From positions 15,688,501 through 15,752,500 of the forward strand of contig OY987244.1 in NCBI GenBank assembly GCA_963920765.1: a stretch of 64,000 nucleotides of DNA, written 5' to 3'. Source of the DNA: Ulota crispa (taxonomy: Eukaryota; Streptophyta; Bryopsida; Orthotrichales; Orthotrichaceae). Under the pieces are notes generated by a model. It saw only the letters and a list, made by a program, of their open reading frames with translations. It had not been told where the DNA came from and made no database searches. Shown here one piece after another: positions 18,233-64,000 of this stretch; positions within the stretch are counted from its first letter, which is position 1, and each line of letters starts with the position of its first letter. A program made the position numbers and the translations under genes.

Positions 18233-18711
18233 TGCAAGCATCGAGGTGTTTCTGCGATTGATTGTGAGCGTTAACAGCAGATCAGGTCGTAGTTACGTGT
18301 TACCTGGCTTGGCGTGGCTGGATCGATCGACTGGTTCCGTTTTGTCCACCGACTTCGCATGTTACGGTTCAATTTTCTGCAAGCTAGATCTTGCAAGGCT
18401 CGATCTGAAGGTTCATAGTTGTGTCGATACGAAGAAACCAAAGTGCGCATAAAGTGAAGACTGAAGAACCTGTCCGATTTGTGTTAACGAGCTTGGCAGA
18501 AGCATGGCGATGCTGCGACACGTACTGCTCAACCGGACGCGAGTAAGCGGGGTGCAGCGGCGACCGTGACGATGTGGCTGCAGTGGATTGCTCAGTAGTA
18601 GACAGACACAGCACGGTTGAACTGTGCGTGCGTGCTTGCTCGCCTGCCTTCATTCAATCGCCCGCCTTGGAAACAGATCATCGATCTGCAGTCTAGCTGT
18701 GAGTCTGAACG

Positions 18712-21310
18712 ATGGGCGGCGGGCAAACGCTTCCGGCGGTGTTCGAGCTCGGCACCGTCGCTGCTCTTCTTCGCTTACCCACCGGTATCGCTACGATCAT
18801 CTTCACAGCGATGGTAGCTATAGTGGTGTTGTCGAGGTTTCTGCATCAGTACTGGCGGAGGAGTTTGCCTCCAGGACCATTCGCGTGGCCGATAGTCGGC
18901 AACCTGTTCAGCCTGGGCCCGTTGCCATACAAGACACTGCGCCAGTTCTCCCTCCAGCACGACAGCGACCTCGTGTACCTCCGAATGGGCAGCACGCCGT
19001 GCATCGTGGTGAACTCGGCCGCCATGGCGAAAGAGGTCGTCACGCACCACGACCTGCAATTCGCGAACCGCCCTACCAAGCTCTTCAGCAAGACGCTACT
19101 CAACTCCAAGGACATCATTGCGAATTCCTACGGCCCCTCGTGGCGGCACCTGCGCATGATCTGCACGTCTCAGTTCTTCACGAAGAAGCGGCTGGCGTCG
19201 TACGAGGCCGGGCGGACGCAGGAGATTCACACCCTGGTTAAGGTCATCCGGGGCGAGACCGGCACCGACTCCAGGACCATCAACCTGCCGTTCCAGCTAC
19301 GCAACACGGCCACCAACACCATGTCCCGCATGGTGTTCAACAAGCGGCTGTTCGTGGAAGGGGAGGACTGTCACTTGGAAGACGCCAAGCGGTACCAGAA
19401 GATCCTCATCATGCACTTCGCATCGTATGCCGTGTTCGTGATCAGTGATTACATGCCCTCGCTTGAGTTCGTTACCACTTGGCTCGGCACGCGGGAGAAG
19501 ATGCAGCATATTGCGGCCACCATTCATCGCAAGCTGGATGAGATTATCGACCTGGCTGGGCGTGAGGAACGGCGGAAGCGGTGCACGCCTGAGCAGGACG
19601 CCAGCTGCGAGAAAGACTTCGTGGATTTGCTTCTCGCTACACCCGCTCACGATGGCCACGGTACCTTGGATCACGAAACTATTCGCGCTGTCGTGCTGGT
19701 GAGGACATCCCAAACTTTCCTGATCTCTTCCACTTTTCCATGGGAGTATGACGGTTGCATATTAAATCAACGAAAATCTGTTCTCGAGTTTGTGAACTTC
19801 AAAAGACTGGAGGTAATAAGAGAGTTCGCTGTGAATCGGCTGAATTCTGAACCTCATCTTCATTCCTTGCACTTCATCCCTTTTCTCTTTAGGGAAAATT
19901 TCATGGATACCCCTGAAGTTTGCAATATTTACATAGACACCCCTGCTTTTTCAGAAATTACACAAATACCCTTCGACCAAAATTTTCAGGCGTTTGTTTT
20001 ATTGTGCATGCCACTTCCCTAACAAATAAACTCCTAAATTTTTGGTCGAAGGGTATTTATGAAATTTCTGAAAAAGCAAGGGTATCTACGTAAATATTGC
20101 AAACTTCAGGGGTATCCATGAAATTTTCCCTTCTCTTTATTACCTCGTAACTAAAAAAACAAAAAGTAAAAAAAGGTTAGGTGGTAAGCTCTGGTGAAGT
20201 TTTCATTCTAGCAAATTCGTCACGTAAATTATTTTGCCTGTTATCCGTTTTGAGTTAGATTGTGGCTTCAGAAAAATCGAGAACGAATGAGTGGTGGGAA
20301 ATACACTTTGAGTTTTGCTAATTGCTTACCTTATAGAAACTTTCCAGCTTGACACCCGAAGATGGATTGGAGTTCAGCCAGTTCGTTAAAACTGGGAATA
20401 TAAGGGCTCTAGAGAAGCCGCATCTGCAATTAATGAAGCAACAGTGCACAATAGTGATTCCACCTATTGTTGCTGATCGTCAACTCCCAGATGCAGTTTT
20501 CACACTTCTGGATTTTAGAGAGTTGCCAATTGCCAACCCTCTTACAATACAGTTTTGCAAACATACTTTTCCCTGAACTTGCATGTGCAGTTTTTTTAAG
20601 GAATGACGGGGCAACCCCAATGGGATACAAATGCTGATTGTTTGACGAGAAAAGGGGGTTTGGTTGGAGCGCAGGATATGATGTTCGCAGGAGCGGAGAC
20701 GCAATCGACGACACTAGAATGGGCGATGGCGCACCTGATTCGGCACCCGGAGGTGATGCAACGAGCGCAAGCGGAGCTAGACAGCGTGATCGGCACCGAC
20801 CGCGTGGTGTGCGAGGCTGATTTGGAGCACTTGCCGTACCTGGAGGCGGTGATGAAGGAGGTGATGCGAGTGCAGCCCGGGGCGCCCATCGGCGTCAACC
20901 ATGAGTCACGCGAGCAGACATGCGTGGCGGGGTACAACCTCCCAGCATACACACGCTTGATCTTCAACATTCACGCCATTCATCGCGACCCTGCAGTCTA
21001 CGACCATCCGGAGGAGTTCCGCCCGGAACACTTTCTGCGTGGCGGCAGAGGGCAACAACAACAACAGGACGGATTGTTCCAGCTCATGCCGTTCGGTGTC
21101 GGGCGAAGAATTTGTCCCGGACTGCCGCTTGCAAACATCAACATGTGCCACGTCCTTGCGCATCTGCTGCACAGCTTCGACTGGCGCTTGCCTGGAGATG
21201 CGAATCCTCGGGAGCTGGATATGGCGGAGCGGTTCGACGGGATCACGGCGCCACGGGTGCATCCTCTCCTTGCTGTTGCACACCCCAGGAAACCAGCTTT
21301 CCTCTATTGA
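18712..21310 (+). CDS. Cytochrome P450, A-type (CYP71-clan-like) monooxygenase
   Basis: Two exons, 18712-19698 and 20675-21310, phase 0 junction, 540 aa, the usual plant microsomal P450 length. An N-terminal membrane anchor (about 24-41) is followed by the hinge PPGP (53-56). WRHLR (144-148) is the C-helix motif. AGAETQSTT (334-342) is the I-helix oxygen-binding motif, at the start of exon 2. EVMR (391-394) is the ExxR of the K-helix and FRPEHF (444-449) the PERF region. FGVGRRICPG (469-478) carries the haem-ligating Cys476. Such enzymes are held on the ER and oxidise small hydrophobic molecules with electrons from NADPH-P450 reductase. The substrate cannot be told from sequence. The intron before the I-helix is placed as in many A-type P450s. 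Exons are GC-rich against AT-rich flanks. The 976-bp intron holds a MITE; read-through from exon 1 would end at 20022. Confidence 0.93.
19891..20131. mobile_element. MITE in the P450 intron (about 241 bp)
   Basis: Long inverted repeat: AGGGAAAATTTCATGGATAC at the left and GTATCCATGAAATTTTCCCT at the right, with arms of over 100 bp. The flanks TTCTCTTT occur on both sides, giving a 7- or 8-bp target duplication depending on whether the last T belongs to the element. An 8-bp duplication would fit hAT. It lies wholly within the intron. Confidence 0.8.
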
Positions 21311-21593: not shown

Positions 21594-23853
21594 TCATTGT
21601 GCGGTGGTACTCTGGAAGAGTTTTTGGTGAATCGCATATGACACCCACGCATCTAAGCTGGCATACTCAACTTGAACCTTGTCCAAGACGGGCTTTGCCC
21701 AGTTGCTCATGGTAACCCGTTTGGGCTTCGCCATATCGTAGTCCATGACTACCTTCGCCAGAGCCTTGAGCCCTGTGAACTTCAGTTCGGGTCGGCCCAA
21801 AATGGTCGCAGCCAGAGAGGTGAGATCAACTGTTCCGTTGCATTCCAGTCCCCAATCTCGTTTCAGCTTCATGGCGTCCCCTTGAATTCCTACCCCGGGA
21901 AACTTGATTGCAGGATCCTTCAGAAAGTTTACTAAACCCCTTGGAATGATATCCAAGTACAACATCTGAACAATGAGACACTCGCTCTCCCCACAGATCT
22001 GCGCAGCCAATGCATAGAGTATTCAGTAAGCAAATGACAACGGCCGTTTCATCATGTCAATTGCGATTCAAAGCGTGTTCACTGTTCTTCCAAGGAGATA
22101 AATCAAAAGAATCATACGCTAAGGGCCACTTTAAATTGCACAGGTTGGAGCAGATGCAAAGGTCCAGATAACAAGCTTAGAATTTTGAACCAACAATATT
22201 TGCAACTAGGGATGATAACAAACTTAAAATATTTCAAAGCACTTTTGACGCATATAAGGTAACAAGTGCCCCAATCCGTCTCAATCCACCTCAAAAACGT
22301 AGCTAGAGACGTTATTCAAATACCATCAGCATGCCGCATTGGAGCCATGTCACCGGGTCATGCTCATACTCGTCATTTGGACTGATGTAAAGTCGACACT
22401 AAACAAGACGAGGTAAATCAGGTAAGCAATGATGTTCGCACCAACCAAGGTGTAGGATCTCGTATTCTCTCAAGCTTCTTGCTTCAACATGTGCAGTCTA
22501 AAGAAGCCTAATTAAATAAGCAATCAGAAAAGTTTACCTGCAAAAGCGCAACTTTATGTTCGGTGCCTTTCTTATGGCTGGGTCGCCATTCAGCATCTAA
22601 ACCAAAGACGGTTCCTTTCTGACGATTCAACCACTCTTGCGCAACAGCACCATTCTTGGTATTCGTCACAACGATTTTCTTCCCCGCTACGTGAACCTCT
22701 GTAACAACCCTGTTGCTCTCGTCCACAGGTTGTGCGGTTTCAAGTGAGGAATCCTCAGAACCCCTTAGATACTTTAAATTCACAACAACTGCCCTGTTGC
22801 AAACGTATTGCCACACCCTACTGTGCGCATCAACAGTCGTTGCTTCTGTAGTTGCTACCGAAGGCGATATTGTCTCGTCCCTTCCCTTCAGAAGCTCCTC
22901 CTCGAGTCTCTTCCGCTTCTTCTTGTAAGGCTTCATCCGTCCAGGTACTTCAACTGCAACTGAAGTCTTCACGTCCTTTTCTTCAGGGGATTCTCGCAGC
23001 TGTTTCTGTTCCGTCATTTTGGTAAGATTTTCTGTACTTTGAGCGGTAGAGCTCGATGCAAAACGCATGTTCATCGCGTCTCGAACAACCTGAAAAGTGT
23101 GAACACCACGCATTTCATCGGCCACTATCAACAACGAAGAATTACTAACACACACAAGTCAGGTTTGACACTTCGCTGTCGAAATTCAATCTCCTTCTCA
23201 TATTGCGGCCAATTTTTTTGGGGCATATGCCGAAAGATGCTTGTTTGAGTGCTCCCTCAGGCAGGTACATTAGAAGGAGTAGAAACAAACAACTATAACC
23301 CTCGAAACTGCAGAACAGAATAGCTAACGAGCCCTGGCCTCGATCGTGAATCAATTCGTCGTCATAGACCCGTCATCCTTGATCAACTTCATAAGAGTTT
23401 TGAACTAAATTTCGTGAAATACTATCCACGGAATTATCAAATTTGATTTATCACGGTTCACGAGAACCACAAAAAAGACTGAAAAAACGAGGATAATAGG
23501 TGCTGGATTCATTGCAAACCACTCCAGACACATTTTGCTAATCGACCTACAACGAATTCCACAGACAGCTCCTAAGTGTAATTGCGGTCAAAGCAACAGC
23601 ATACCTGGTCTAGAGGCTCCTCGAAAACTCGTTCATTCTCCATATCCGGCGAAGTCAAAGTCCGTCTCTTCTTCCGACGCTTCTTCCTCATCTCTTTCGA
23701 CGACTCGCTACTTTTCGCACAGTCCAAGACCTCAACGACGCTCATGTCCATCTTCTTAGAGCGGCTCTTCGTGGTCTCCCCAGCGCTCCCAACATCAGTC
23801 TCTCTCGCGGTTAAAGCTCCCGGCATCGCTCCTTCCACCCGGAAAAAGACCAT
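21594..23853 (-). CDS. DEDDy 3'-5' exonuclease (Werner/RNase D-like, plant type)
   Basis: Three exons on the minus strand: 23853-23605, 23089-22538, 21998-21594, all phase 0, 401 aa. Residues 1-240 are low-complexity and basic, with KKRRKKRR-type runs that could be a nuclear signal. The exonuclease domain spans about 240-395. FGLDAEW gives Exo I (Asp248, Glu250), GVGIQGDA gives Exo II (Asp308), and EYASLDAW gives Exo III (Tyr379, Asp383), the DEDDy set that binds two metal ions. Plant members of this family are small stand-alone proteins lacking the RecQ helicase of animal WRN. The in-vivo substrate (DNA or RNA ends) is not known from sequence. The intron between the catalytic halves falls right after VALLQ. 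The start is the first ATG of the open exon; a second in-frame ATG nine codons later is possible. Confidence 0.88.
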
Positions 23854-40301: not shown

Positions 40302-42229
40302 TCAAGTGTCTAGTATCACAGTATGGAGAGGTCCGTTTGGCAATGAAGTAGAGGGCACCACTTGATAGAATGCTAAGAAGAATCCAGTGACAACATAATC
40401 TTTAAAGAGGCCATAGCTAAAAGGGGCTGCAAAAGTAAAAGTAGTCATATATTCCTCCCGCCACCTGCTGCAAGAAGTACGGTTCTGAATTACCAAGGAC
40501 AACAAAGAATCCACATTTGGAAGCATATTGATTGCAACTCCAAGTGCAATTTCCACCCTTACAGACCATCTCCGATCATTGCAACTACTTCGATTGTCAT
40601 TTTCGACAATTGGGTACAGAGGTCCAATGCAGACACTATAACATGTGTTCAGCAGTATTTCTGCTTGGGTAGCCCATGAGCACATCGTCCGCCTCTTTGA
40701 GAAGGCAACAAGCAAAGCATTCACATACGAGCACAAGCCTATTCCTAGAACCAAATACAAAACCATGTACCACAAACTTGTCAGTTCCAAGATTATTGGA
40801 ACCAAGAGTAGTGAAGCCACCACGGTGCACCATAGTAGCACAACTCCCACGGTATACACGCCTGCACCCACCCACAAGGCCACAACTAGTCATGCTTCAG
40901 AAATTCTACACAATGCCGCAATGTCAGTGCACGGGTAGAACTCCTGGTAGAACTGACGTCTATATTTCACCCGGCCTGCAACACAGAAACTGTTGCTCGT
41001 AAAACCAACATATATCAATCCAAGTCAGAGAGTCAACGGTTTGTCAATTATGGAGTCAACGGTTTATCAATTATGAAGGTAAGTACTTTCAAAGTGCATG
41101 GTCCAAAACGTTAATTTGCTACTACTACGGTATTACCCACAAAAAATCTGGTGGTGACGATCCAAGGGAACATAAATGGTGCAAAAAGCTCACACTATTA
41201 TTTGCTACCAGTGATGCAAGATTCAAGCGGAGAGAGCAGGTAAGCATCCAGACCCTTACCTCCAGCAATTCCTGCCATGTTCGGTATTGGCGACCACTTA
41301 TTACTGATCTGGTACATGCAAGCGCGACCGGAGTTGTAACAAGCAGACAAAAATGAACATATGATAGATAGAACCATCGCTGCTGAGGGTTTCCAACGTC
41401 CACCGCCCTCAGTGATCTAGAAGATTACGGAAGTTTGGAGGACCAGTTGCGATCCCGTTGGAATTGTTACTGTGATGGCATACAGAGCTTCCGTCTCTGC
41501 TGATTCTGTAGTCTCCATCGCCCTGATTGGAGTCCACAAATTCAACCAAATTTCCCAGTTCAGTCATATTGCTCAATCATGGTTTCCTCTACTTTAAAGT
41601 GTTAACACGACCAAGCTATGGAGAATGAATTGGACCCTGACAATCTAAACCTCGCGTATCGATGTCATGCTCTGAAGCATACTAGTCAGTAGTCACTAGT
41701 ATTTTTCATCGACTGTGATCCATCTTGGAAATGATGGGCAAGTGCAGTACTAACTTAGCTTACCTTGCACAAGAGCATGTCCGGTAGACCCTTTCACAAA
41801 TCGTAAAAACTGGACGATTGGAAGAAACATGGCCGACCGCAGTGGACATTCCTCCGGTGGAAGTTCGAGCTTGAACGCCAGCGCCGTGAGTACGGGGTCA
41901 AGGAGCAGGAGCCCCAGGAAAACGTAAAACGGGACGTAAAGTGCCGTATATGGATAGTGAGGAAGTTCCCCGCCCTCGTAGGACCCTTTGCTTCCCAGAA
42001 TGGAGTATTCTCGAAGGACAAGGATGTTGGTCACGAAGTCGAAGAGAAACAATCCTGCAGACACCGATTTTGCTACCGAGCTCATCAGAACAAGAACAGC
42101 TTCCCAGCGGGTAGGAGGACAGCTGCTCTCAACGCTTTCCAAGTCCGTTGAATGAAAAGGCTTGTCAGGCTCCATGGCGTGTACGTGCACATATATCTCA
42201 CAGAAGTTCTCACTCTGCAGCAGCAGCAA
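40302..42229 (-). pseudogene. XK-related-like multi-pass membrane protein with an in-frame TGA
   Basis: Minus-strand exons proposed: 42229-41764, 41505-41429, 41382-41260, 40952-40302, phases consistent, about 437 residues plus one internal stop. Hydrophobic segments occupy most of the protein. Resemblance to XK-related (XKR) proteins: a first pair of membrane segments with FDFVTNI, a Pro-Glu-Glu loop, LPIVQFLRFV, then an ESAETEALYAITV helix where XKR proteins carry an E-S-x-P-Q helix, and a later CRISEA..VALWV helix like the XKR E-x-x-S-R region. XKR proteins in animals act as phospholipid scramblases or their relatives. TGA at 40892-40890 interrupts the last exon after residue 242; the frame then stays open for 195 hydrophobic residues to TGA at 40304-40302. 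This could be a recent nonsense change, an unrecognised splice, an assembly error, or a truly shorter protein. The start could also be the internal ATG at 42175. Family assignment is tentative. Confidence 0.4.
41031..41078. repeat. 24-bp direct repeat in an intron of the XKR-like gene
   Basis: GAGTCAACGGTTTGTCAATT and GAGTCAACGGTTTATCAATT lie directly next to each other, one mismatch apart. Confidence 0.75.
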
Positions 42230-42281
42230 CAGCAGGCTTGCTTGCTAAAAATGAAGGCACCAGATGCACCACTGGACCTTG

Positions 42282-49664: not shown

Positions 49665-52107
49665 GGCTGTAGCCCTTTCATTGAATGAAGGCCAAGGATC
49701 CTCTCATACTTTGTAGTTGAATTCACATTCATAATGAAATGTCACTATTAAATGATATCAAAAGAATTTGAACTCACTGGCTCGAAACAATATATCTTTT
49801 ACAGATTTTTGACATTTTGTCACAAAAATTTAAAATCTAATAGTAGAATGGAAAATATCTCCTTTGGAGAAGCTAGAGTAGCAAGCATGTGCAAGAAGGG
49901 AAGGTTATTGAACAAGTAAAGATAGGAATCTAAAGTTTTTGAACTCTTAGTGCCTCCAAAGTCCAAACACCGTCAAGACCTCTAACCATATTATAAGGAC
50001 CTAAACCCACATTTGCTCACCAAGATCAACCTAACTATATAAAAACCTATATATATTTTGTAGCTTTCTATTTCTTAGAGTGCATGGCAAGTTGAAGTGT
50101 GTTGATCTCAAATTTAGGAAGCAAAGAAACTGTGATCTAAGATGACTCTAGACATAAGATCTTCATTTTTGCAAGTATTTTTTCTTTAACCTATCTCTAC
50201 ATTAGATTGATATAATACCTTGCACAAAGATCAAGAAGCATCCAACAACTAAACTAACCGCATAGTTAAAGAACAAACAAAAATAAATTCACACAAAATT
50301 TGGATGTAATTCATCCAATGCACATGATTTCTACTATAAGTGTATGAAAGTGTTCATTGTCCACCTAGTGGGTGCTAGCAACTTTAGGGATTAAACCATC
50401 TAACCAATTGGATTTGTATATTATAAATTGATGGTCTACTAAAAGCTTCCTAATGTAGGTATGAAAAGAGTAAAACACAATATTCATTAATCTAGGAAAA
50501 ATTGCAAATTTGGATCTTTTGGATTTTATGTTTTTGAAAGAGTGTCTACTTAATATTCTTTTAAGGATATAAAACCCAAAACTCCCAAAACTCCCAAAAC
50601 TCCAATTTTTCCAAATTATTGAAAATCATGTTTTAAGGAATTTTTTTCATGTGAGGCCAATTTCAACAAAGTCCTTAGATAGAACACATATTGGATTGAG
50701 TATCATGGATTGCATGGTAGTGTAGCTTATCTGCAAAAGAGGAATTGGCAAACTTGGATAAGAAGATTCGAGGAGGAAGCATGTCAATTTAAGAGTTTGG
50801 AACTTTGGGTTGATTGGGACCTTGGTCAAATTTGATAACTGGAATTGACTTGCTATGAAGTGTCACCATTATTTTGTAATATACTATAGCAAGTATTGAA
50901 AATTGCAACTTTACTCCAAGCGGAGTGTGTGATATGTCATTGAAAAAGTGTTATTTAGAGCTTATCAACAATACATCATGCATCTAATTTGATTAAAAAA
51001 TTCACACGTAAGATTGTGCTAGAGATTTAATGTAAATACATTGTGGATTTTACCACATTTTGGATTTTGATAACAAGGCAATCCTATTGCTTCACTTATT
51101 TCCTCCCTACACACTCACATGGAAATAATCCCTGAAACTTTTTATTTGTCAAGGTAGAAATATACTTTAGCAACTCTAATGATAAATTTGCCTTGAATCT
51201 TTGGAACATGGCAAACACAAGTCTGTATTAAAGCACCTCTTACCGTTTGAATTTTTATTCAGTTTAGAATTTAGATAGGTTATTGCTGTTTTATAGTATA
51301 CCCGTTACTTTTACCCTGTAAGGTCTGCGGTTGATTTGGGGTAAGCAAGAGGTTTTCTTGTTCTAAATTTAATAGTCAATACATATGAGAAATACCTAAT
51401 TGTGATTTGTGATGAAGATTTGACCATACCATTGGAATGAGATTTGATGGGCTTGGACTTTCACAATAAATTTGGTGGCAATTGAGGGTTCCTTTGTTGC
51501 AAATTATAATAGACTTTTGAGTCCGTATATGGTGAAGTGAGCATGTAAACAACAAGCCACCTTTGCCATTGTATTTCGTGCTAAGGAATTCTTTTTTGTT
51601 CTTATAGGGCTAGGTTTTTTTTTTACCATCAAGAACCATATGGAACTCCAACCTTGCATTCTCCAAACTTGTGTTTGTAAATATAAATGTCATTCTTTTT
51701 TGCATTTAGGGCTGTATTTCTCCAATATTGAATTGTGTATTTTTAGCCTGCATGCATGCAATTTTTTCAACCCCTACACCACATGCTAGCATGGATCTTC
51801 ATGAGATTTGTCCCATTACATTCATTTTTGAATTCCCCTTACACATCCCCTTTCATCCATAACCAAATTCATTGTCAAACTTTGGCTACCAATGATTATG
51901 TGTCTAAATTGGCCAAAAAGTGATTGACCAAACCTCAAAGGGTTAAATGTCCAACTAATTCTAATTATGGCAATTTCTATTGAGCAGTTGTAGGAAATGC
52001 CAATTTTGCCCAATTGTATCTCGACAGCTATCCAAAGGAGCTAGTATGCTTGTTGAAGGGAGCTTCGTGAGCGGTAATGTGAGTGGCAATGGACAAGTTG
52101 TGATGTA
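49665..52107. other. AT-rich gene-free stretch
   Basis: Nothing gene-like is supported. A small tandem run of ACTCCCAAA (50580-50605) is simple sequence. Confidence 0.45.
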
Positions 52108-52110
52108 TAA

Positions 52111-52735
52111 GAGCATCTCCACCGGTGTCTCAAACACGCTCACAGTGGATGAAAAAATGCTAAGGGTCTTTTCAAAACCCTCTCAAGACACTTTGTCCTA
52201 CAGTTTCTAGCAAGGGCCCTTCAAAATACTATTCATCATTAGAGCATCTCCACTGGTCCACGCTCTTCCAAAGTTTTTCATCTATTTTGGCCGGCCCTCA
52301 AGTCCATTGATCTCCACCCATGCTCTTCAAAAAGGGTGGTCTTGCACTCCAATACATACCATAAATAATTAGTTGACCACTTATCAAGAAAAGTAGAGAA
52401 TAAAGTTCACTAAACTTAAGATGAATAGTGTCTTGAAGGGCTCTTGCTAAACACATGCTAGAAATGGTAGGACATAGTGTCAAGAGAGGGTTTTGAAAAG
52501 GCCCATAGCATTTTTCATCCACTTTGAGTGTGTTGGAATCACTAGTGGAGATGCTCTTATTCATTTTAAGTTTAGTGATTTTATCCTCTCTTTTTCTTGA
52601 TAAGTGGTCAAATAAATATTTATGGGGCATGGTGAAGTGCAAGGCCACCTTTTTGAAAAGGATGGGTGGAGATCAAGGACCTTGAGGGCCCTTCAAAAAT
52701 TGATGAAAAACTTTGAAAGAGCTTTTTTGGTACTG
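52111..52735. mobile_element. Outer MITE, GAGCATCTCCA family, split by an inner copy
   Basis: Starts GAGCATCTCCACCGGTGTCT after TAA (52108-52110). Its sequence follows the copy at 26244-26564 up to ATTCATCA at 52238, then resumes with TTCATTTTAAGTTTAGTGAT at 52560 after the inner element. The right end near 52735 is degenerate. Confidence 0.65.
52242..52556. mobile_element. Inner MITE nested in a member of its own family (315 bp)
   Basis: Starts GAGCATCTCCACTGG and ends CTAGTGGAGATGCTC. TTA flanks both ends (52239-52241 and 52557-52559). Its text (CTTGAAGGGCTCTTGCTA; GAGAGGGTTTTGAAAAGG) is the outer copy in reverse orientation, so it inserted in the opposite direction. Confidence 0.8.
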
Positions 52736-52794
52736 AAAGAATTGAGTGCAATAAGGTGGAGGTTTAGACCAGTGTCAACCATGTTTTGACATGT

Positions 52795-53166
52795 TTAACC
52801 CTTAAACGCCAAGGCCCATAGTTGTGGCCTGCCTTGTAGTGTACAACTACAATGCTCAGGGTGTGCGGAGCCTATAGTATTGCTTCAGAAAGTGAAAAAA
52901 GTCAATAGTGCATGCTGCCCACATGAAATTTGTAAGAAGGGCAGGAGGGGACTTATCAACCATGGTTGTGAATGTTCTCACAAATTTTAATTTTGAAAAA
53001 AATGAGGACTTTCAATCGATCCAATTTTGGCACTCTGTGGTGAAGAACCTTGCAATAACTGCTTTTGAAAAAAAATTGAATAAAAAAAGCTTTTTTTTTG
53101 CAACCCCCAGACTGTTTTTTTTGCACCAAAAGGACGATAATCATCTCTTCGACCTTTAGGGGTTAA
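52795..53166. mobile_element. TTAACCCCTAAACGCC-family element (372 bp)
   Basis: Left end TTAACCCTTAAACGCCAAGG, right end CGACCTTTAGGGGTTAA. Contains poly-A and poly-T runs near 53060-53125. Open frames in it are not supported. Confidence 0.6.
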
Positions 53167-53268
53167 TATTACTTGGAGTCTTTCAGGCTGTCTGCCATCG
53201 TTGTAATTTCTACTGGAGTCAAGGATGTCTCTATATTGCCTTTGAAGCAGTGTTTTTTTTTTGGGCAA

Positions 53269-54929
53269 TTTAACCCCTCAACGCCCCTCCCCTTTTCAGC
53301 GTGGTATCTGCGAGTTCAGAGATAGGGTTACGGTACATGGAATTGTCGTTTTGATTGAGGGTTGCTCGGCAGTTCACCGCTGATTGAGGTTTATGCTCTG
53401 TTTCTGCAGTGCCTGAGTCCAAAACCAAAGGATTTCACCGTGCTGATGTTATCCTTATAACGATCAAAAGCGGGTGAGCGTCTAAGCCAGAACTGAAATT
53501 CCGGTGGCTAATGCACTTTCGACAAACCTGCCCATCGACTGGGTGCAAAAGAAAAGGGCACAATTTGCAGGCGTGCTCATGTACGAGATAAGAATGCACT
53601 TACAAATTATCAGCTCGATTCATGCAAGAATCACAGGATGTGAGGCATCTACGTGACCACAACTCTGTGCGGGCGAGAGAAGAAAGACCGGTTTAACAGG
53701 TGCACTCCACCTGCCAATAACCGACACCTGGAACTCCCACTCGCGTATGCACGGCGTTCTCAAAAAACTTTTGAGGAACCGCACCTGCGGCAGCTGCGAG
53801 CTGTTCAATCCAAACTCATATGCCGAAATGCCGAAGTAGTGTAAGTCAAGGAAACAAATTGCTCTACAGGAGCTTGAACTGGGAAGACGATGAAATGTAC
53901 CTGCTTGATTGGGTTCAGGATTTATAACCATTCTGGCATATCGAAAAGGACAAATTCGGCAGTTTGACATGCAGCCAACACCTCGAAATGCCAGAAGCTA
54001 GTGCATGTAAAAGAATCTCTGCATATGTTGCTCAGGACATATCGCAGAGGTTTGCTTCAATTCCCAGAATGAGACAACCTCTGTGGTAACGAAAGGCAAA
54101 AGCGAGAGAGTATTATGAGGGAAAGGAAAATTTCCCGATTATGGTTGAAGGACTCTAATCCCTTCAAGTTGTAATACGTAGCTTGAATAGCAAGTGCTCT
54201 GGTAGTTTGGTCAGTGATGGCTCCTGATTTAGGGAAACGCTATAGTAGTACAAAAGGTTTATTGCAGCAACTGGAATCTCTGCAGAAAGCTCCCTATGTG
54301 GCAAAATAGCACAAGAATACATATCGTTCATTACCAAGAGCCAGCTAGGAATGGGTTCAGAAACCAACTCGCCACCTGATCTGCGACAACGGTTGCAACG
54401 TCTGCAAGCATCGACAAGCCGGGAATGGGTTTCCAAAACAAACTCGCCACCTAATCTGCGACCCTGAGTTTGACTCTATGGACATGGGCATTTTTATTAG
54501 AGCAACAATACATCAGTGCGGGCATGTAACCATCAACCTGTAAGCATGAAACCACACCACGACCTGCAAGTCACAACAAAACATAAGTGCAGCCAATCTA
54601 CACCTGCTAAGAAGCACACTGGAAACCTCCTCTCGCCTCGGATTCCTTGGGACAGCGCAAGCAACGGTTGTCCACCGGCTGGAGCCGGTTGAAAGCAGGA
54701 ATCCTGGCCCAACTGCCATGTCCGAAAATGGCCTCGAAGCTAATCATGCGCCATTGCCAGAGATCGACGTCATCACAGGTTTTGAAAATCCCAGCACTGG
54801 ATTAGTCTTCACAAAGCGGCCAACTTCATTTTTCATTTCCCTCGCCCTTGCGACAATCCCACACCGCAACAAGCGAGAGAGAAAACACAAACAACGACTT
54901 TTGCGCTGCAGGGGCGTTGAGGGGTTAAG
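53269..54929. mobile_element. GC-rich segment bracketed by TTAACCCCTCAACGCCCCT inverted repeats
   Basis: Left end TTTAACCCCTCAACGCCCCT (53269), right end AGGGGCGTTGAGGGGTTAAG. The inverted similarity extends outward through GGCAATT and poly-T/poly-A tracts (53252-53268 and 54930-54952). The 1.6-kb interior is clearly richer in G+C than the flanks. It has exon-like minus-strand pieces, such as an open frame 53970-53620 with C-x-x-C near its start (residues 4-7) and GT/AG signals at its edges, but no family was recognised. A tandem duplication sits at 54355-54465. It may be a transposon that captured gene sequence, or an old gene hemmed in by two repeats. Confidence 0.45.
54355..54465. repeat. 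About 75-bp diverged tandem duplication
   Basis: GGAATGGGTTCAGAAACCAA and GGAATGGGTTTCCAAAACAA each begin a stretch that continues ACTCGCCACCT.ATCTGCGAC, about 75 bp apart. Confidence 0.7.
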
Positions 54930-55408
54930 GCCTAATTGCCTCAAAAAAAAAACAAACAAAAAGCGGCTTCAAGCCTACAGAAAAAAAACGGTGAATTTTT
55001 TTTAATAAATGTCGAATTGTAATAATGAAAATCGTGTTGCAGCCTAAGCTTTCATAAAGTCCAAATTGAAAATTGATGTCATCATTTTAAAATAATTTGA
55101 GCATTTTAATATTTTTGAGGTGTTGCCTAATCCAATTCAATACAATACTTAAGTAATGATTATAAGGATGCTTTCAAAAAATGACCAATGAATATTTTTC
55201 ACCTACAAAAAAATCCCATGATGCTCCAAAAATCCATGAGTTGGGACCACCTTCAACTCCAACCAAAATCGGGACGGAGCCAGCAAGCTACAAACCATTT
55301 TCAAAAAATGCCACCCAAGCATCGGTGAGAAAACCAAAAAAAATCCCTGCTTTGTAGTGTTCTAACGAAGCTAATGACAACACTAGGTGTAAGAGAGAGA
55401 GAGTGTAG

Positions 55409-57579
55409 CTATGAACCAGCTCGACTTGGAAGCTTATTCAAGATACAATTGCCGTCCTTACTCCAGTACTCGCTGCCTACACACTGCCGGCAAACGAAGA
55501 GGCCGGAAGGATCAACTCGCTGCTTTGTCGCCACCAAGCTGGCGTAATTCTCGATGCCCCAGAACGACCTCGTCCAGTCGACCTCATCAACACTGGCTTC
55601 ATTGACATAAGCACCGGTTTCAGGAAACGCCGTGTGCAGCATTTCAACATAGCGTCTGCAACGAATCCGAGCAGCTGACTTCTCCATTTGCGTCGCGTTC
55701 CAGCCCCAGCTGGATCGAGTGGTCAAGTGCCAGAGCCCCTCTCGCCATGCCGGTGTGACGGCTGTTTGTCGAAGAGGATCTCCTAGGCGAACTCCGGGCC
55801 CAATCACCATATGGCCTAGCACGCCAGAGCCCTCAGATAACCCCACGGCTGCGACAATGGTCTTCGCCAGGTGACGAGGGTTCTCCAGAGCCGAGAAGGG
55901 GATGATTCGCGAGCCTAGCACGCCACGACCCCCTGTATAGTCTGTGCCTGTTTTGGGGAATATCAGGCCGTAGACGGCACTATGCCATTCCTGGAATGTG
56001 GAGTAGCTGTGAATCAAGTACACGGTCATATTCACGTTCTGGATTTGTGACAGAGCTTGTACAACGGGAGTCAGGGTCGCCCTCGCGGTCGTCTCTGTGG
56101 CTGGAACCAAAAAATTCCCAAAAAATAGACTGGAATTGAAGCTCCAGTACCCCGCCCAGTGGGCTGCATCGAGTGGAATTGTGCCTTGGGCCCAGACTGT
56201 TAGAATGTCTTCTTGTGTTACTGTCGTCCAGGCCGCTCCATTGCGAGGATTCAGCAGTAAGATGGCACCCACCAAGTTGCTGGGTGTTGGATGGAGTTTA
56301 TACGTGACGGATGTCACCACACCAAAGGTTCCCCCACCACCGCCACGAAGGGCGAAGAAGAGATCTGCCTCGTGGCATTGGTTTGTGACTCGCAGGGTGG
56401 CATCGGCCGTCACCACCTCCATCTGCAGGACGTTGTCGACGGCGAGCCCGAAGGTGGGACTGAGGGCGCCGTGGCCGCCTCCTTGCACGAACCCACCCGT
56501 GGCGCCCACCGTGAGTGACATGCCGCCCACGAGAATGTAGCCTGTGGGTTTCAACGCGTCGTAGATCTCGCCCCATGAAACGCCCCCTTCAACCGTGATG
56601 GCGGGCCCGTCGTAGTTCCCACATCCGCCCTCCGGCTCCCAGGATTCATGAATGGTTATATTCTTGAGCTTGTGCATCCAAATGAGAAATGAACCAGCTG
56701 CCGCACTTCGGCCGAGGAAGTCGTGGCCGCTGGTCTTGACCACGACGCGGAGGTTGTGGAGCGCTGCGAAGCGGATGGCGTTCTGCACGTCCTGGACAGC
56801 CTCCACTTGCACGCCCAGCACCGGCACTAATCCTTGGTAACAAATACTCGTCCTTGACGCGTTCATCGCGCACGTTTTGTTGCCACTTTCCTCCCAATTG
56901 TCTTGTTGCATACTTCCGGCATTGTCTGCTCGCATGTATGAATTGACTTGATTATTCCGTACGAACTGGCACCTTGTTGCGTTGAAATCTGGGTCGTGAC
57001 AAGGGCTCCCTGAATTTTTGCAAGAATGGGATCCGAATGCTGTAAGTTAGTCATAATTATTCTAAGACGATTTGACTGCCATGAATTTACGCTGTTTTTC
57101 CTCCTTTGATCACCTCTGCTTTGCAATCTGACAGCTTTTTTATTATTTTTCTTAAAGAAAATTTACAATCTAATCCATTCTTGTTAATTAGAGAGTTACC
57201 ATGTATGCAAGAGACGAATTTACTCTAGAATTAGGCCGCAGCTTGAACTCCATATGAGATACCAAGTCAGATCCGTGTCGATAGTTGATAACTCCTGAAT
57301 AGTGAGAAGAAGCAATTGTGGTACAATTGTGCAGGCTCAAGGATGTACAAGGCAGATGAGCTGCTGTTTTTTGGGCTTACCTGTAGGTTTGGGAGCAATT
57401 AAGCGACCACCAATAGTTACATTCAAAGCATTCCATTCCTGGTGAGTCGGCCAACAAGTAGCTTTTGAATCTGAACAGCGGCACATGCTTCCGTTGCTGC
57501 AGGTAATTAATGTGGAGGCAGTCCAGAGAGCCACCACTATATTCGTTATAGCATCTGTTGCATGGTTGTGCATCGCCAT
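55409..57579 (-). CDS. Secreted FAD-linked oxidase (PCMH/BBE type), fungal-like
   Basis: Two minus-strand exons, 57579-57381 and 57009-55409, joined in phase 1 across a 371-bp GT-AG intron; 599 aa. Residues 10-26 form a hydrophobic signal peptide. Then come CRC..TCW..EWN..IGGRLI (33-61) and a PCHD..RC segment, typical of secreted fungal FAD oxidases. KTSGHDFLGRS gives His162, the expected 8-alpha-histidyl FAD attachment site. GATGGFVQGGGHG and DLFFALRGGGGGTFGVVTS are the rest of the PCMH FAD fold. The second covalent cysteine of plant berberine-bridge enzymes is absent in the TVGATGG loop. The C-terminal BBE segment reads YVNEAS...WGIENY...DPSGLF. The enzyme probably oxidises an alcohol, sugar or secondary metabolite and makes hydrogen peroxide; the substrate is unknown. 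The ATG at 57579 is chosen because it directly precedes the signal peptide and follows a TATA-like box; in-frame ATGs lie upstream at 57654 and 57630. Confidence 0.9.
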
Positions 57580-57633
57580 CTCGTTTTGAGGTATGCTCGT
57601 GCCTGTAGCCGGAGCAGCGGGACGAGGCATAAA

Positions 57634-57643
57634 CAAAATTATA
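57634..57643 (-). promoter_or_regulatory. TATA-like box upstream of the FAD oxidase
   Basis: Minus-strand TATAATTTTG ends about 55 bp before the chosen ATG. If it is the core promoter, it excludes the farther upstream ATGs. Confidence 0.35.
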
Positions 57644-58510
57644 CCTGTGCACATTGTATTTGGTTAGACCGGGTGACAATTTCAAACGGCAATCTTTCAA
57701 GGTAAGGTGGAAAATCTGCCCTAGACTGGAAAAAGTGTACGAATGCGCAGAGACAAATCACCTCGACGAGATCTGGAGCAGCTGCTTTAATTACTTGAAA
57801 CCGAGCTTTCATTCCTAACCACTTAGACGACAGAACAGGTGCCTGGACTCTCTCTCTGGTTTAAGGTTCTTTTGGCCGCAAATGCAGTTGAGCGCTAATT
57901 TCGTAACTGTCCTAAGAATTTGATGAGGAAATACCTTCAGAATTGTGATGGCAGAAATCAGAAAAGCGTGAACATTCTCATAGGGTTTGTTGTATAATCC
58001 AGCACCAATCCAACATACAGTACAATTTGGGCTACCCAATCACAAGTTTTCCATGTGACAAGGTTTCTGAACCAGCTGAATGTTGTGAGTAGAAGTGGCC
58101 CACCTTGAATTCTCCTGCTCAATGATACAACACCTTACACGCTATACAGCGGAGTAATCTCTAGAATTGCCTTGGCCCTAAAGTTGATGTCGCTTTGCCT
58201 CTTATTCAAATTTTCACTGCCAGGGATCAGTGGAGTGGACCATATCCTGGACCTTGCCTCATTCTTGTTCTTGTCAAAAGGCAGCAGCTTCTAAGTGGAC
58301 GTTTCGGGTGCAAGTGACAGATGTAGACCTCATGCAAGTGTGATGACTTCACATTATCTTTTGGGTGTCCATTCTGAGACGTGAGACTCTTCATATATGC
58401 CAACGTGGAAGTCCTTTTCCATGGGTTAGGTACCTAACACTTGCTTATCAATTTGTTTTCTGGGTAGATTTTTGTTTAGATAAGCTTATGCTCATGTGAT
58501 GAGGTTACTA
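57644..58510. other. Intergenic stretch upstream of the FAD oxidase
   Basis: Mixed composition, less AT-rich than the later spacers. No supported exon was found; the reverse open frame 58039-57815 has no recognised features. Confidence 0.35.
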
Positions 58511-59335
58511 GGGTGATTGCAAGAAAGACTTCACGTTTTTGTCTCAAAGTGCCTTTTTTGGGTGTAGTACTGGCAGTGTTACCAGTATTGCAAGTATTAC
58601 ACAACATTTTGTGGAAATTTGAACCGTCCCTCCCATCCCAAATCTATTGGGAATGAGGCACATGGCATGTCATTTAGGAAATCCAACTATCAATAATGGC
58701 AATTCAATGAATGGATGAAAAAAATTCACATCCTCAAATGGTGTTAGTGGTCAGTGGTACTACAAAGTGCCAATTAATGGTAGGGAGTACTACGCAGGCA
58801 TGTGGAGCACAAATTACTAGAATTTCTAGGCTGCCATGTTTTCAATTTTAGTAATTACAAAAAAAATCCAAAAAATAAAACAAAAAATGGCCATTTTGCT
58901 CTATTTGAGACGCTTGAATTGATGAAATTGATTTTTTTGGGGAAGTTTGTTTTCTTTCTCCAATGCTTGACCAAAGGATGCCCACTTTGAGAGCATGTGG
59001 AAGGTAGAGAATTCACAACTTCCTAGAACCCTTCTACGCATCCATGTAAAGCTCTATGATGAACAACTTGTGGCATGAGATTTGCTTTTTTGGACCCAAA
59101 ATAGTACTAAGACCCTCCAAAATGGCCAAGGTAGACACCTATTTGGAGGGTACTTAAAAATAGTAAAATAAATTTAAAATGACCGTAAAATTTATTGAAG
59201 GTTTGTGATTATGACATGTACCTTTGTTTGAAATTTCATCTCAAAATGACTTGGTATGCAAAAGATAGGAGCCAAAAACCACGTGTAGGAGGTGAAGGGG
59301 ACAAAAAATAGTACAAGTGTTTCTTGCAATCACCC
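58511..59335. mobile_element. Inverted-repeat element with GGGTGATTGCAAGAAA ends (825 bp)
   Basis: Left end GGGTGATTGCAAGAAAGACT, right end AAGTGTTTCTTGCAATCACCC. ACTA occurs immediately outside both ends (58507-58510 and 59336-59339). Only the terminal 20 bp pair well. Confidence 0.65.
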
Positions 59336-59436
59336 ACTAGTCTCATGTCCATTATCAGTCTCAGGTTGAAAAGTTGTATTAGAATACCAGTGCAATGTCA
59401 CATTCACTAAACTCAAGTGGTGCAACAATAAAGACT

Positions 59437-59679
59437 TTAACCCCTAAACGTCTAAAAGTGCCTTTGCGGCCAGTATAATACAAGGCATTTTCTTATATTT
59501 TTCTTGTATTTGAGATGGTTCTAGATACTTTATGACATTTGAGATCAACAAAGAAGTGGAAAACAAATAATGCGATACTAGTGAGCTATTTGAGATTCCG
59601 AATTAAAACTTCTTGTCCGATAGCAAATACCAATTACATAGCAATGTATCTATTATCTCATGAGACTTTCAGGGGTTAA
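59437..59679. mobile_element. TTAACCCCTAAACG-family element (243 bp)
   Basis: Left end TTAACCCCTAAACGTCTAAA, right end GACTTTCAGGGGTTAA. Short and AT-rich inside. Confidence 0.55.
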
Positions 59680-59695
59680 ATATTGTCAAGCAACC

Positions 59696-60564
59696 TTGAC
59701 CCCTAAATGCTCCAGGCCTATGGCCTATTTGACCTTCTTGGAATTTCCATGAACCTAAACAATCCACCAACTTTTTCATAAATTTCATCAAGGTTTTTTC
59801 AATTGTAATTGTACACATTTAAACTAAACATGTTAGAAATTACATGGAAAAAGAAAACACAACAATATCACTTATAGTTTGAAAAATTGTAATGTTTGAA
59901 AATGAGGGTGTTAATCCCTAAAGGGCCCTTGGGCTCTAGAGATATGGTACCAAATACGGTTGCAACCAATATTAAAAAATTTAAATCAGCTAGAAATTAA
60001 GCGTTACAACCATACATATTGAAGGGTTGTTTGATGGTGGATGCATAATTTTTTTGGAAAGTCCTCAAAGCAGCTCAAATACGTTTGTATATATGGCCAT
60101 ACATATAGCAAAGGACTTTTGGGCTGTTTAGGGTTTAAAATGTTAAAAGTGACTTGAAGTCTTCTAATCCTCATTTCACATGTCAAATCTAAAAAGTTGG
60201 TCACCAAAAAGATATGAGGTTTAAGGTCATTACATGTCTAATTTTAATCAACTTATGGTTTTAAAATCTACTCTTATTATTTTTGAATGGACTTCTAATG
60301 TGCATTTTTCTCTAAGTTCTAGTGTATTTGAGGCTCATTTTCAAGATCTTTGAACACTAGAAAGCTCAAGATTGCAATGAACACCCTTGTACAAAATCTT
60401 GAGTAGAAAACCCATCAACTTTCACTCTCAAAATCAGATTTTTGATGTTGAAAATAGATTTCAAAGAAAACTTATATTGAAAAAAAACTAAACTAAAAAT
60501 AGTGATTTGATAAAGTTTTATTCATCTTCACCCAAATCTGGTCGCTTGGGCTTCTAGGGGTCAA
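59696..60564. mobile_element. TTAACCCCTAAACG-family element (869 bp, with a nested relative)
   Basis: Left end TTGACCCCTAAATGCTCCAG, right end GGGCTTCTAGGGGTCAA. Inside, 59911-60138 has its own ends TTAATCCCTAAAGGGCCC and GGGCTGTTTAGGGTTTAA, so it may be a nested member. Confidence 0.5.
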
Positions 60565-62015
60565 CTGACATAACGAGGTTTTGGTTTTTATCTAACATTG
60601 TTTGCAACCTCAGTATTGTTTTACAGACCATCATTGGTAACCTTCAATTAGACATGAAAGTTTCTTTTTTTTCAGCTTCCAGATCGATGTGCTTTTGCAG
60701 CTTACAACAACTGATCCAGCATGCAAGTGAGTTGCTGGAAAACTGGTGAAAACTCTGCATTGGAAATTATGTGGATTCAGAGTTTGCCACTTCTCATCAA
60801 GCAGCATGGAATTGGTAACCAATGACCAGTTTCAACCAAGTTGGATGAACTCTTTGGATGGAACAAGGCATGATTTTCACCAAATCTTATTTCTATAATA
60901 GGCTTAGTTCTATTAGTAGTTGGTTGTTTATAATAGAATAAAATTTGTGTTAATTGGGTAGTTGGGTGTTCCTCCAAGAAGATAAATGGCGGTTATGTGG
61001 CAGTTATGGTTGTCCTTGGGGATGGGGTATACACGGGGATAGGGGATGGTTGCTTGGAGAAGGAGGTGAAGCGTGTAGGTAGGCATAGTACAGGTAAGCT
61101 CATTGCAACAGAAAGGAGAAGAAGTTTAAAGAAGGTGATTATGAGGAAGGTCATGTTAATCTTTTGTAAGGACCCCCTCCCGTGATGGCCCTTCGCTGGA
61201 ACGACGGGTACAAGGGTCCACTAGTGTAAGATATTACGAAAGAACATAAAAGGACCCGAGTACAGTTGCTGCGAAATGGAAGCACTTGGGAAAGTCGAAC
61301 ATATCAACACAGGTTCTTCAATCAAGATGGTAGCTATGGTGGAAGGGTACACCGAAAGGAAATTCTACACAACCGCAGATGTTAGCTGATCAAAAATGAA
61401 AAAGGTAGTTTTGCTATCCCATTCAGAAGCTGAGTGAATTAAGAGTTTGCTTGTCTTTCATTCTGCATGTTATTGTTTTCAATAGCTCATGAGCAGATAA
61501 CATCAATAGCTTTAGCAAGGCTCATGAGGGTCTTCAAACATGTGCAGGCTTGATCTTTTCTGATGCCTTTTGAAAGGCAAATGATGGAACATTCATTGCA
61601 GGAGGAGCAAGCACTTGGACTGGGAGAACTTGGACTGTTTCTAGGACTCTGAAAACAGGGGCTTTTTTTCACTTAGTTGCTGATTTTGAAGACTCTTCAC
61701 CATATTAGGTAAATTGGGAAAAACGGAGGGACTGTTTTGTATTTCACCTCAATCTTACGTGTAGGCATAGCTCAAAAGTTGTTAATTTTGAAGCTCTTGG
61801 AGGTAATCACTAAGACATCACTATTGTATAAAAAAATACACGCTTGTTTTTTTGTGATATGCTAATATATACATAATGGTAAAAATAATGAAAGTCCCAT
61901 AATGTACTGTTTTTCCCAATTTACCTAATATGGTGTTTAGAGCCTACTTTTAGCATTAGTTTGTACTATGCATGGTTTCACAAAAAAGGAAATTGTGTGC
62001 TATATAGTATTGTTT
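60565..62015. other. Unresolved stretch, possibly decayed retroelement
   Basis: The section 60640-61400 is less AT-rich than its neighbours and has short open frames but no recognised domain, long terminal repeat or primer-binding site. I cannot assign it. Confidence 0.3.
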
Positions 62016-62764
62016 TGGGGAAATTGCAAAATGAGTAACAAAAATAAAAGAAATTACAATTTGGGTAACAAATCCAATAATCTCAACATGTTTTGCAACT
62101 TGCTGTAAGTGCTGTTGAAGCTAGCATCAATATTGTTGCCCGCTGTTTGTTGCAACCCCTTTTCTCTCAATGTTGACCAATCCCAGCACTAAGTAGCAAA
62201 TGTTTGCCTAACAATCATACATCGCACATTGTCAAGGAATAATTGCTTGCCCTTTGCTTGCAGGTACCGCTTTAGAACTTTAGTGTGCGCCAGAAAAGAC
62301 ATTTAAATGTCTCCCATGTGTGTGAATGTTGACACCCCAAGCTTCCCACACGCCGAACAATGTGTTTGATCCTCAACATTGTCCTTGCCACGGCTCCAAA
62401 TTCTTATTTTTTTGTGCAGTCACTTGGCATGTTGAACCACTACACAAATTGTACTTGCAAGCAAAGGGCAAGTAATTGTTCCTTGATAATGTACAATGTA
62501 TGATTGTTTGGCAAACATTTGCTGCTTGGTGCTAGCAAGGGTCCTTGCAAGGGTCACAACTGGTTGGCACTGAGAGAAAGGGAATTGCAAGAAACATTGA
62601 GCAACAACATTGATGCTAGCTTCAACAACACTTACAGCAAAATTATTGGATTTGTTACCCAAATTGTAATTATTTTCAAACCATTACCCAAATTGTAATT
62701 ATTTTCAAACCGTTACCTAGATTGTAATTTCTTTCGTTTGTGTTACTCATTTTGTAATTTCCCC
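62016..62764. mobile_element. Large inverted-repeat MITE with GGGGAAATTGCAAAATGAGT ends (749 bp)
   Basis: Arms of over 250 bp: left GGGGAAATTGCAAAATGAGT, right ACTCATTTTGTAATTTCCCC. The inner pairs include GCAAGCAAAGGGCAAG against its complement near 62245, and TTGTTACCCAAATTGTAATT, which is repeated three times at the right end (62650-62740). Confidence 0.8.
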
Positions 62765-64000
62765 AACTTTATCCCAATGAACTACAAAATATAAACCCCT
62801 TCATATGTGTTTACAGCAGTGTTTACAAATTTTAGAGTTTTTTTCTTACATGTTTTTTATAGCTACAACAAATGTGAATACCACGTTAGATTTGACTTTT
62901 TAGCACAATTAGCAAGATTTTATGCTCTCGAGTTAGTTATGTGAATCACAATTGGGACCACTGATCTACAGTGGTTTGCACATAAGGAGGCTCAGGTGAT
63001 TGGCCCTTGGCCATTTTAACTAGCCTGGGTGGGGTCAAAAATGGTTGGGACAAGGTTAATAGTGTAAGTTTTCAAATTTGTGAGAAGCTAATAATGCTTG
63101 TAGCACGGGGCTAACATGGTGAAAATGGGGCGGTAAAAATGGGAGCTTATGCGGCAAAAATTGGCCCAATCCTACAAACTTCCCTACTGCTAGAGAGGCT
63201 TCAAAAAGGGGCTAAACCCACCCCCTCCAAAAGCTCTTGTTAACAGCTCCACTCCTCCCAACATGTGAGTAATATCTTGAGAAAACCATGATGGTTTAAT
63301 TTCTAACCATAAACGTAAGCTTATAAACTTTTTGACTATGAGAACACAAGCACACTCTCAATCACTCTCAAATGCAGTTTATTTGGAACATCATTTCCTG
63401 CAAATTCCTGATGAGAAAGAATTATTGATTTTATTGGAGGCCCTTTTCATTATTTGTTCAAATGACCTCACTTTGACCTCAATGGCCTAAGAATGTGTTT
63501 ATGTTTCCACTTGTTAAAAGGACGTAGAAGAGGATGGAGATGATAATGATGAGAAGGTAATTAAGAGGTCGTGGCCTTGTAGGGTGTGCACATTAGTATA
63601 CATGTTGGCAAACAAAAGAGAAACACATGTGTTCGACACATATAAGACTTGCATTGGCATGCAATTCTTCTTTCTTGTTATGTAAGACTTGCATTGGCAT
63701 GCCATTCTTCATTCTTGTTAAGTAAGTAGGCTTGTGTTGACGTGTTGAATTTGTTGTTGTTGTGGATGTGCAATTAGAATTGTGTATGTTGTTGTAGTGG
63801 TAAAAGTGTGTTTGACTATTAAGTGCTTTGGGACATCCTTGCTATGTTTGTTGCTCTTGGGTGCATACTTGACAATGTATTGCTCTTTAGCTAGTGGTTG
63901 TTAACCCCTAAACCACAAAAGTTTGTTTAACAATTTATAGTTGTGTGTAAGAGATGCCTTTAGTGTGCTCAAATTTTCATAATACTAGCTTGAGTAAATA
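62765..64000. other. Gene-free stretch to the window end
   Basis: No exon was recognised. TTAACCCCTAAACCAC at 63902 resembles the left end of the TTAACCCCTAAACG family; any partner lies outside the window. Confidence 0.4.
63643..63722. repeat. 40-bp direct tandem repeat, two copies
   Basis: TAAGACTTGCATTGGCATGC begins each copy, at 63643 and 63683, followed by ATTCTTC.TTCTTGTTA. The copies differ at only a few positions. Confidence 0.85.

Follow-up and report, generated by a model that had tools for sequence, protein, structure and literature searches.

The question raised by this locus is whether a gene for an FAD oxidase like the secreted ones of fungi, found in a 64,000-nucleotide stretch of the moss Ulota crispa (the window, G000:C3:15688501-15752500), is a true resident of the moss chromosome and, if it is, from which group of organisms it came. 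On the minus strand an uninterrupted frame of 545 aa (55409-57046) has a short exon 5' of it, and together they make up a two-exon gene of 597 aa inside window positions 55409-57579 (exons 57573-57381 and 57009-55409). Exon 1 (57381-57573) carries the start codon, a putative signal peptide and a CRC..CWP..EWNALN..GGRLI block, and exon 2 (55409-57009) the rest of the FAD domain, the substrate domain, the BBE C-terminus and the stop codon. The start was taken as the ATG at 57573, with further in-frame ATGs at 57579 and 57630. The intervening intron (57010-57380, minus strand) was placed by homology and is 371 bp long, in phase 1 and of the GT-AG type (GTAAGC...TTCAG), the 3' end of exon 1 reading CCTACAG/GTAAGC at 57381. 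There are two in-frame acceptors, ending at 57040 or 57010. The first was dropped as the weaker alternative because it would leave a 10-residue insertion relative to the fungal proteins MtVAO615 and MtVAO713, whereas the second yields KPT/GSPCHDPDFNATRC, in line with the fungal block and free of that insertion, and is intact in a second genomic copy of the gene on contig C1 (see below), in which the donor is conserved as well. The junction 57380/57010 is therefore preferred, and the proposal in the initial annotation of a phase-1 intron that restores a conserved Pro-Cys-His block holds good. In the C1 copy a 4-base gap puts the upstream acceptor directly 3' of a CTAAC branch-like site, the downstream acceptor being unchanged. 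A segment inside the intron (57200-57294) has splice-like ends and is identical at 89 of 95 positions between the copies, which is about as conserved as the exons. It could be a frame-changing alternative exon; as a regular middle exon (57294-57200) it was rejected, as its inclusion throws exon 2 out of frame.

The window protein is a VAO/PCMH FAD oxidase with a BBE C-terminus, both Pfam domains scoring above their curated cut-offs (FAD_binding_4, E 1.2e-21, 77.3 bits against a cut-off of 26.4; BBE, E 1.9e-9, 37.8 bits against 20.6). Eight NCBIfam models matched at E <= 0.01, every one far under its own cut-off (best 89 of 850 bits). The two motifs to which attention had been drawn at the outset are both present, the N-terminal block reading MCRCSDSKATCWPTHQEWNALNVTIGGRLIAPKPT and the flavin motif KTSGHDFLGRS. 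In the PDB the top matches were MtVAO615 (PDB 6f72; 243 bits, 5.1e-71) and MtVAO713 (PDB 6f74, from Myceliophthora (Thermothelomyces) thermophila; 204 bits, 3.9e-59), obtained with an earlier 607-aa model as query and near full length (residues 17-594 and 30-590 of that model, with the N-terminal cysteine block included); the residue alignment was redone with the 597-aa model. The PDB listing gives 6f74 the title 'Alcohol oxidase', and its His159/Ser231 numbering fits MtVAO713. When the 545-aa frame was used, the next matches were EncM chains (73-75 bits), followed by plant BBE-like chains at 70.6 bits or less.

Four residues align with positions whose roles are described in the accessible part of PMC6017366 (all codons on the minus strand). 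His160 (56723-56725) is matched to the histidine that links the FAD, His157 in MtVAO615 and His159 in MtVAO713; Ser229 (56516-56518) lies at the site of the second FAD-linking cysteine, which is Cys222 in MtVAO615 and Ser231 in MtVAO713; His244 (56471-56473) and Glu535 (55598-55600) are aligned with active-site pocket residues (His237 and Glu519 of MtVAO615, His246 and Glu543 of MtVAO713). According to the same source the FAD of MtVAO615 is bicovalent (His157, Cys222) and that of MtVAO713 monocovalent (His159, with Ser231), both are O2-reactive oxidases with a predicted secretion signal, and no substrate is known for MtVAO615 and only a poor one for MtVAO713. The moss protein has in common with MtVAO713 the His-linked FAD position, the serine in place of the second cysteine, the CRC..CWP block and the pocket His and Glu, but identity to this fungal, predicted-secreted enzyme is 28.6%. 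MtVAO615, the best-scoring solved relative, resembles the moss protein in its N-terminal block and carries a CH motif at the corresponding position, but differs in its bicovalent FAD (His157 plus Cys222), its 32.8% identity and its lack of a substrate so far. The loss of the second covalent cysteine reported earlier is thus seen at Ser229 and, because these four residues occupy positions matching those of the MtVAO enzymes, a monocovalent enzyme like MtVAO713 is to be expected. Of the 13-residue stretches scanned in the window protein, residues 12-24 are the most hydrophobic, and the protein also has 14 cysteines and nine N-glycosylation sequons. These features suggest secretion, and make the signal peptide of the initial annotation plausible; Cys111 and Cys121 may form a disulfide.

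The proteins with which the gene would most easily be confused are the BBE-like enzymes of mosses and other plants, for example the cellobiose oxidase PpBBE1 (PDB 6eo4). These have the same FAD_binding_4 and BBE architecture but form a separate clade, and in the fragments seen they keep a second-cysteine motif (NCPTVG/NCLTVG). The host's own BBE fragments (L006, L007 and L008) likewise retain the second cysteine where the window protein has Ser229, and L008, a fragment of a host BBE-like gene, shares 75.3% identity with Physcomitrium PpBBE1 across 384 residues (657 bits), which by itself makes a moss host very probable. L006 and L007 are two closely similar moss BBE-like genes that lie some 7.8 kb from each other (G000:C4, 20.479 and 20.487 Mb), one with a frame broken by an intron or a lesion. 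For the phylogeny 19 rows were used, namely the two moss copies, two fungal clade members, five long and five short bacterial proteins, three moss BBE sequences, XylO (which we take PDB 5k8e to be) and PDB chain 9p1o, presumably bacterial. The bacterial rows are 10 loci hand-picked among the matches listed of 104 plasmid records plus a further 219. The moss pair, MtVAO615, MtVAO713 and the long bacterial proteins formed one clade (100/100). Forcing the moss pair together with the plant BBE proteins, represented by three moss sequences only, was rejected (AU p = 1.6e-4), so the tree does not place the gene within the plant BBE-like proteins. This, with 243 and 204 bits to the fungal enzymes against at most 70.6 to plant chains, supports the initial assignment of the protein to the fungal MtVAO615/MtVAO713 type and not the plant BBE type.

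A fungal-like protein in a moss assembly could come from a contaminating fungus or a chimeric contig, and a first moss assembly is reported to have had an estimated 22% fungal genes (PMC11228847, accessible in part). The setting of the gene argues strongly against this. The assembly is 274.8 Mb in 157 contigs, and 11 of the 20 contigs checked span 6.3-41.4 Mb and jointly hold about 271 Mb; the gene lies 15.7 Mb into a contig of 34 Mb. A genome search with exon 2 gave eight matches, two of them full-length: the window gene itself and C1:22943677-22945287 on a 41-Mb contig. The two copies have 536 of 590 aligned residues identical (91%), have the same intron and are both intact in frame. Their surroundings also correspond, a collinear duplicated block at window positions 52724-63563 matching C1:22943468-22950493 in eight pieces of 76-95% identity broken by insertions; the comparison covered window positions 50001-64000 against 18 kb of C1, and the ends of the block may lie outside. 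Two further matches between the loci are a repeat off the collinear line. Upstream of the window copy, and absent at the C1 copy, is an element of about 825 bp (58512-59336) that ends in inverted repeats and is flanked by a CTAG target-site duplication. Its family was scored at 40 places from 1675 candidates (this one included, the other 39 at 83-90% identity), on 10 of the 11 large contigs. In addition, a matching gene has been reported in Physcomitrium patens (PMC6001459, accessible in part). Given the position deep inside the 34-Mb contig and the 91% copy with the same intron in a collinear block on the 41-Mb contig, contamination or chimeric assembly is very unlikely and can hardly be given any weight. 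The gene truly resides on a plant chromosome, has an intron and is duplicated, which fits the initial remark that it looks domesticated.

The differences between the copies show purifying selection on the gene pair: 64.4 nonsynonymous differences over 1350 sites against 46.6 synonymous over 420 (pN 0.048 versus pS 0.111, Fisher p = 8.2e-6). The ratio of 0.43 is moderate, and constraint on one copy alone could suffice to produce it. Whole-genome duplication was rejected as the source of the C1 copy. A P450 exon in the window (20600-21307) has just a 114-base match of 71% on C2, and a frame at 2170-2880 has no second match; because neither has a second copy of this kind, segmental duplication fits better. 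The P450 gene as a whole (18709-21307, plus strand) and a 3'-5' exonuclease domain (21597-22022, minus strand) were the clearest of 10 neighbouring frames scanned.

A gene of this kind is already described in P. patens. The accessible part of PMC6001459 describes two BBE-family genes in that moss, with PpBBE2 a pseudogene, and a gene PpBBE3 (Pp3c2_12420V3.1) of two exons and one intron encoding 586 aa; its Figure 1 legend names the model Pp3c2_12420V3.1 PpBBE2 too. For PpBBE3 the paper gives an identity of less than 20% with EcBBE and of 29.3% with the ecdysteroid-22-oxidase from the fungus Metarhizium rileyi, and describes its expression as confined to late sporophyte development. The window gene resembles it in having two exons and one intron, in length (597 against 586 aa) and in having a fungal nearest relative, and likened by this description it is very probably the PpBBE3 orthologue. 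The gene sets differ in that P. patens has PpBBE3 beside PpBBE1 and the PpBBE2 pseudogene, whereas here there are two intact copies. As a matching gene is present in Physcomitrium, any transfer would probably not be confined to the genome studied here. In a literature search, from which subscription papers were mostly outside the scope, PpBBE3 or Pp3c2_12420 was named only in PMC6001459, and no paper with a horizontal-transfer test of this oxidase family was found among the results listed; the accessible parts of PMC12448838 and PMC8035211 hold nothing about this family in mosses. Studies cited in the accessible part of PMC11228847 list 273 transfer candidates in P. patens, among which the family of the window gene may figure.

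An explanation without transfer would be an old eukaryotic or streptophyte gene that mosses and fungi retained and other lineages lost, and the moss branch does nest in no sampled group. We regard this as unlikely. The P. patens study separates PpBBE3 from the EcBBE-type enzymes and finds the nearer relative in a fungus (PMC6001459, as far as accessible), and many losses would be needed if other green lineages are without the gene.

If the gene was transferred, the donor may have been a fungus or a bacterium, and the trees differ on this point. With 19 rows the sister of the moss pair was the bacterial group (89/86), and a moss plus fungi alternative was not rejected (AU p = 0.198); with 14 rows the sister was the fungal group, weakly (71/53), and a moss plus bacteria alternative was not rejected (AU p = 0.396). 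A clade of the moss pair with MtVAO615 alone was rejected (p = 0.026). A realigned 19-row run gave an identical tree and is not independent of the first. The relatives on the bacterial side are long FAD oxidoreductases from plasmids of Caballeronia, Polymorphobacter, Paraburkholderia and Pararhizobium, which fall within the 100/100 clade and of which three of five have a WP..W..L..VG block. In tblastn against a plasmid collection, genes of the first three genera matched in two pieces at 38-41% identity, among the matches listed. A donor akin to these long proteins of Burkholderiaceae, Rhizobiaceae or Sphingomonadales would agree with these matches, with the best 19-row tree and with four fixed columns in which moss equals bacteria (Ala168, Thr297, Leu445 and Trp548). 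However, the five bacterial proteins are without the CRC motif and the Cys111/Cys121 loop, and have GHS and GGF in place of GHD and GGH in every case. Cys31, Cys111, Cys121, Asp161 (the residue after the FAD-linking His) and His244 are common to the moss and both fungal proteins and occur in none of the five, and with the 14-row tree this leaves a bacterial donor, in our judgement, quite unlikely.

The same five residues speak for a fungal donor, as do the top bit scores, which are fungal, and nine fixed columns in which moss equals fungi against the four above (fungi equal bacteria in a further four; in a 9-row alignment the counts are eight moss with fungi and four moss with bacteria), although the outgroup states are mixed and not every column shared by moss and fungi is derived. 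Against it stand the 19-row tree, the rejected MtVAO615-alone clade, the sampling of two fungal proteins in the clade and an identity of just 29-33%, which would mean that the donor group is unsampled or the transfer old. On balance we lean slightly towards a fungal gene that entered an ancestor of the mosses by horizontal transfer, with subsequent intron gain or retention and duplication. Of the original claim of fungal transfer, the fungal-type protein and the native chromosomal gene have stood; the fungal donor was not established, since the sister group flips between bacteria and fungi, and fungus-to-moss transfer is plausible but unproven. Searches of other collections added no relatives. 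A scan of a genome-contig collection gave 10 pattern matches with the protein and 262 with an alignment (A1) built on the less likely 607-aa model, none confirmed, and a viral-contig scan with A1 gave 132, none confirmed; tblastn against a phage collection gave no match. Because the plasmid tblastn did recover bacterial relatives, the genome-contig scans are no evidence of absence.

The results above demonstrate the exon structure (by homology), the family to which the protein belongs, its conserved residues, the duplication and the constraint on the pair; beyond these, we infer secretion, activity, the kind of substrate and a transfer that brought the gene from a fungus or a bacterium to a moss ancestor. 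The gene product is probably a monocovalent-FAD alcohol oxidase of the MtVAO615/MtVAO713 type that is exported from the cell, and the gene, fixed in the moss genome, is very probably the orthologue of PpBBE3. The signal peptide would direct the protein into the secretory path, where it would fold with disulfides and N-glycans, and its FAD would be tethered through His160 alone, the second anchor being Ser229. The substrate would be bulky and hydrophobic, most likely a secondary alcohol; bound in the pocket that contains His244 and Glu535, it may pass a hydride to the FAD, which O2 would reoxidize, the products being a ketone and H2O2. Segmental duplication would then have placed the second copy on another chromosome, with at least one copy under purifying selection. 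The report that PpBBE3 was not found in P. patens culture supernatant (PMC6001459, accessible in part) counts against this explanation. More tentatively, and with considerable doubt, the gene might be a fungal secondary-alcohol oxidase related to ecdysteroid-22-oxidase, gained by a moss ancestor, retained for reactions in the apoplast of the late sporophyte (where it could act, for example, on a metabolite of the moss or on a steroid from insects) and recently duplicated under continued selection.

As it stands, the window gene is a further, recently duplicated and clearly chromosomal member of a moss family already noticed. If the moss clade nests in fungi, it would offer an example, open to testing, of a secreted oxidase that mosses took up from microbes and have retained since at least the split from Physcomitrium. 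It would then stand beside other bryophyte genes that derive from fungi, among them the Marchantia terpene synthases, according to the accessible part of PMC12890914. PpBBE3 is a ready knockout target in the laboratory moss. Two other features of the window were seen in passing. Positions 40305-42244 are gene-like, with inverted copies of 76-83% identity elsewhere on their contig, about 135-147 kb off, and positions 62014-62772 are a repeat of about 0.75 kb with internal inverted halves and many copies of 74-84% identity genome-wide.
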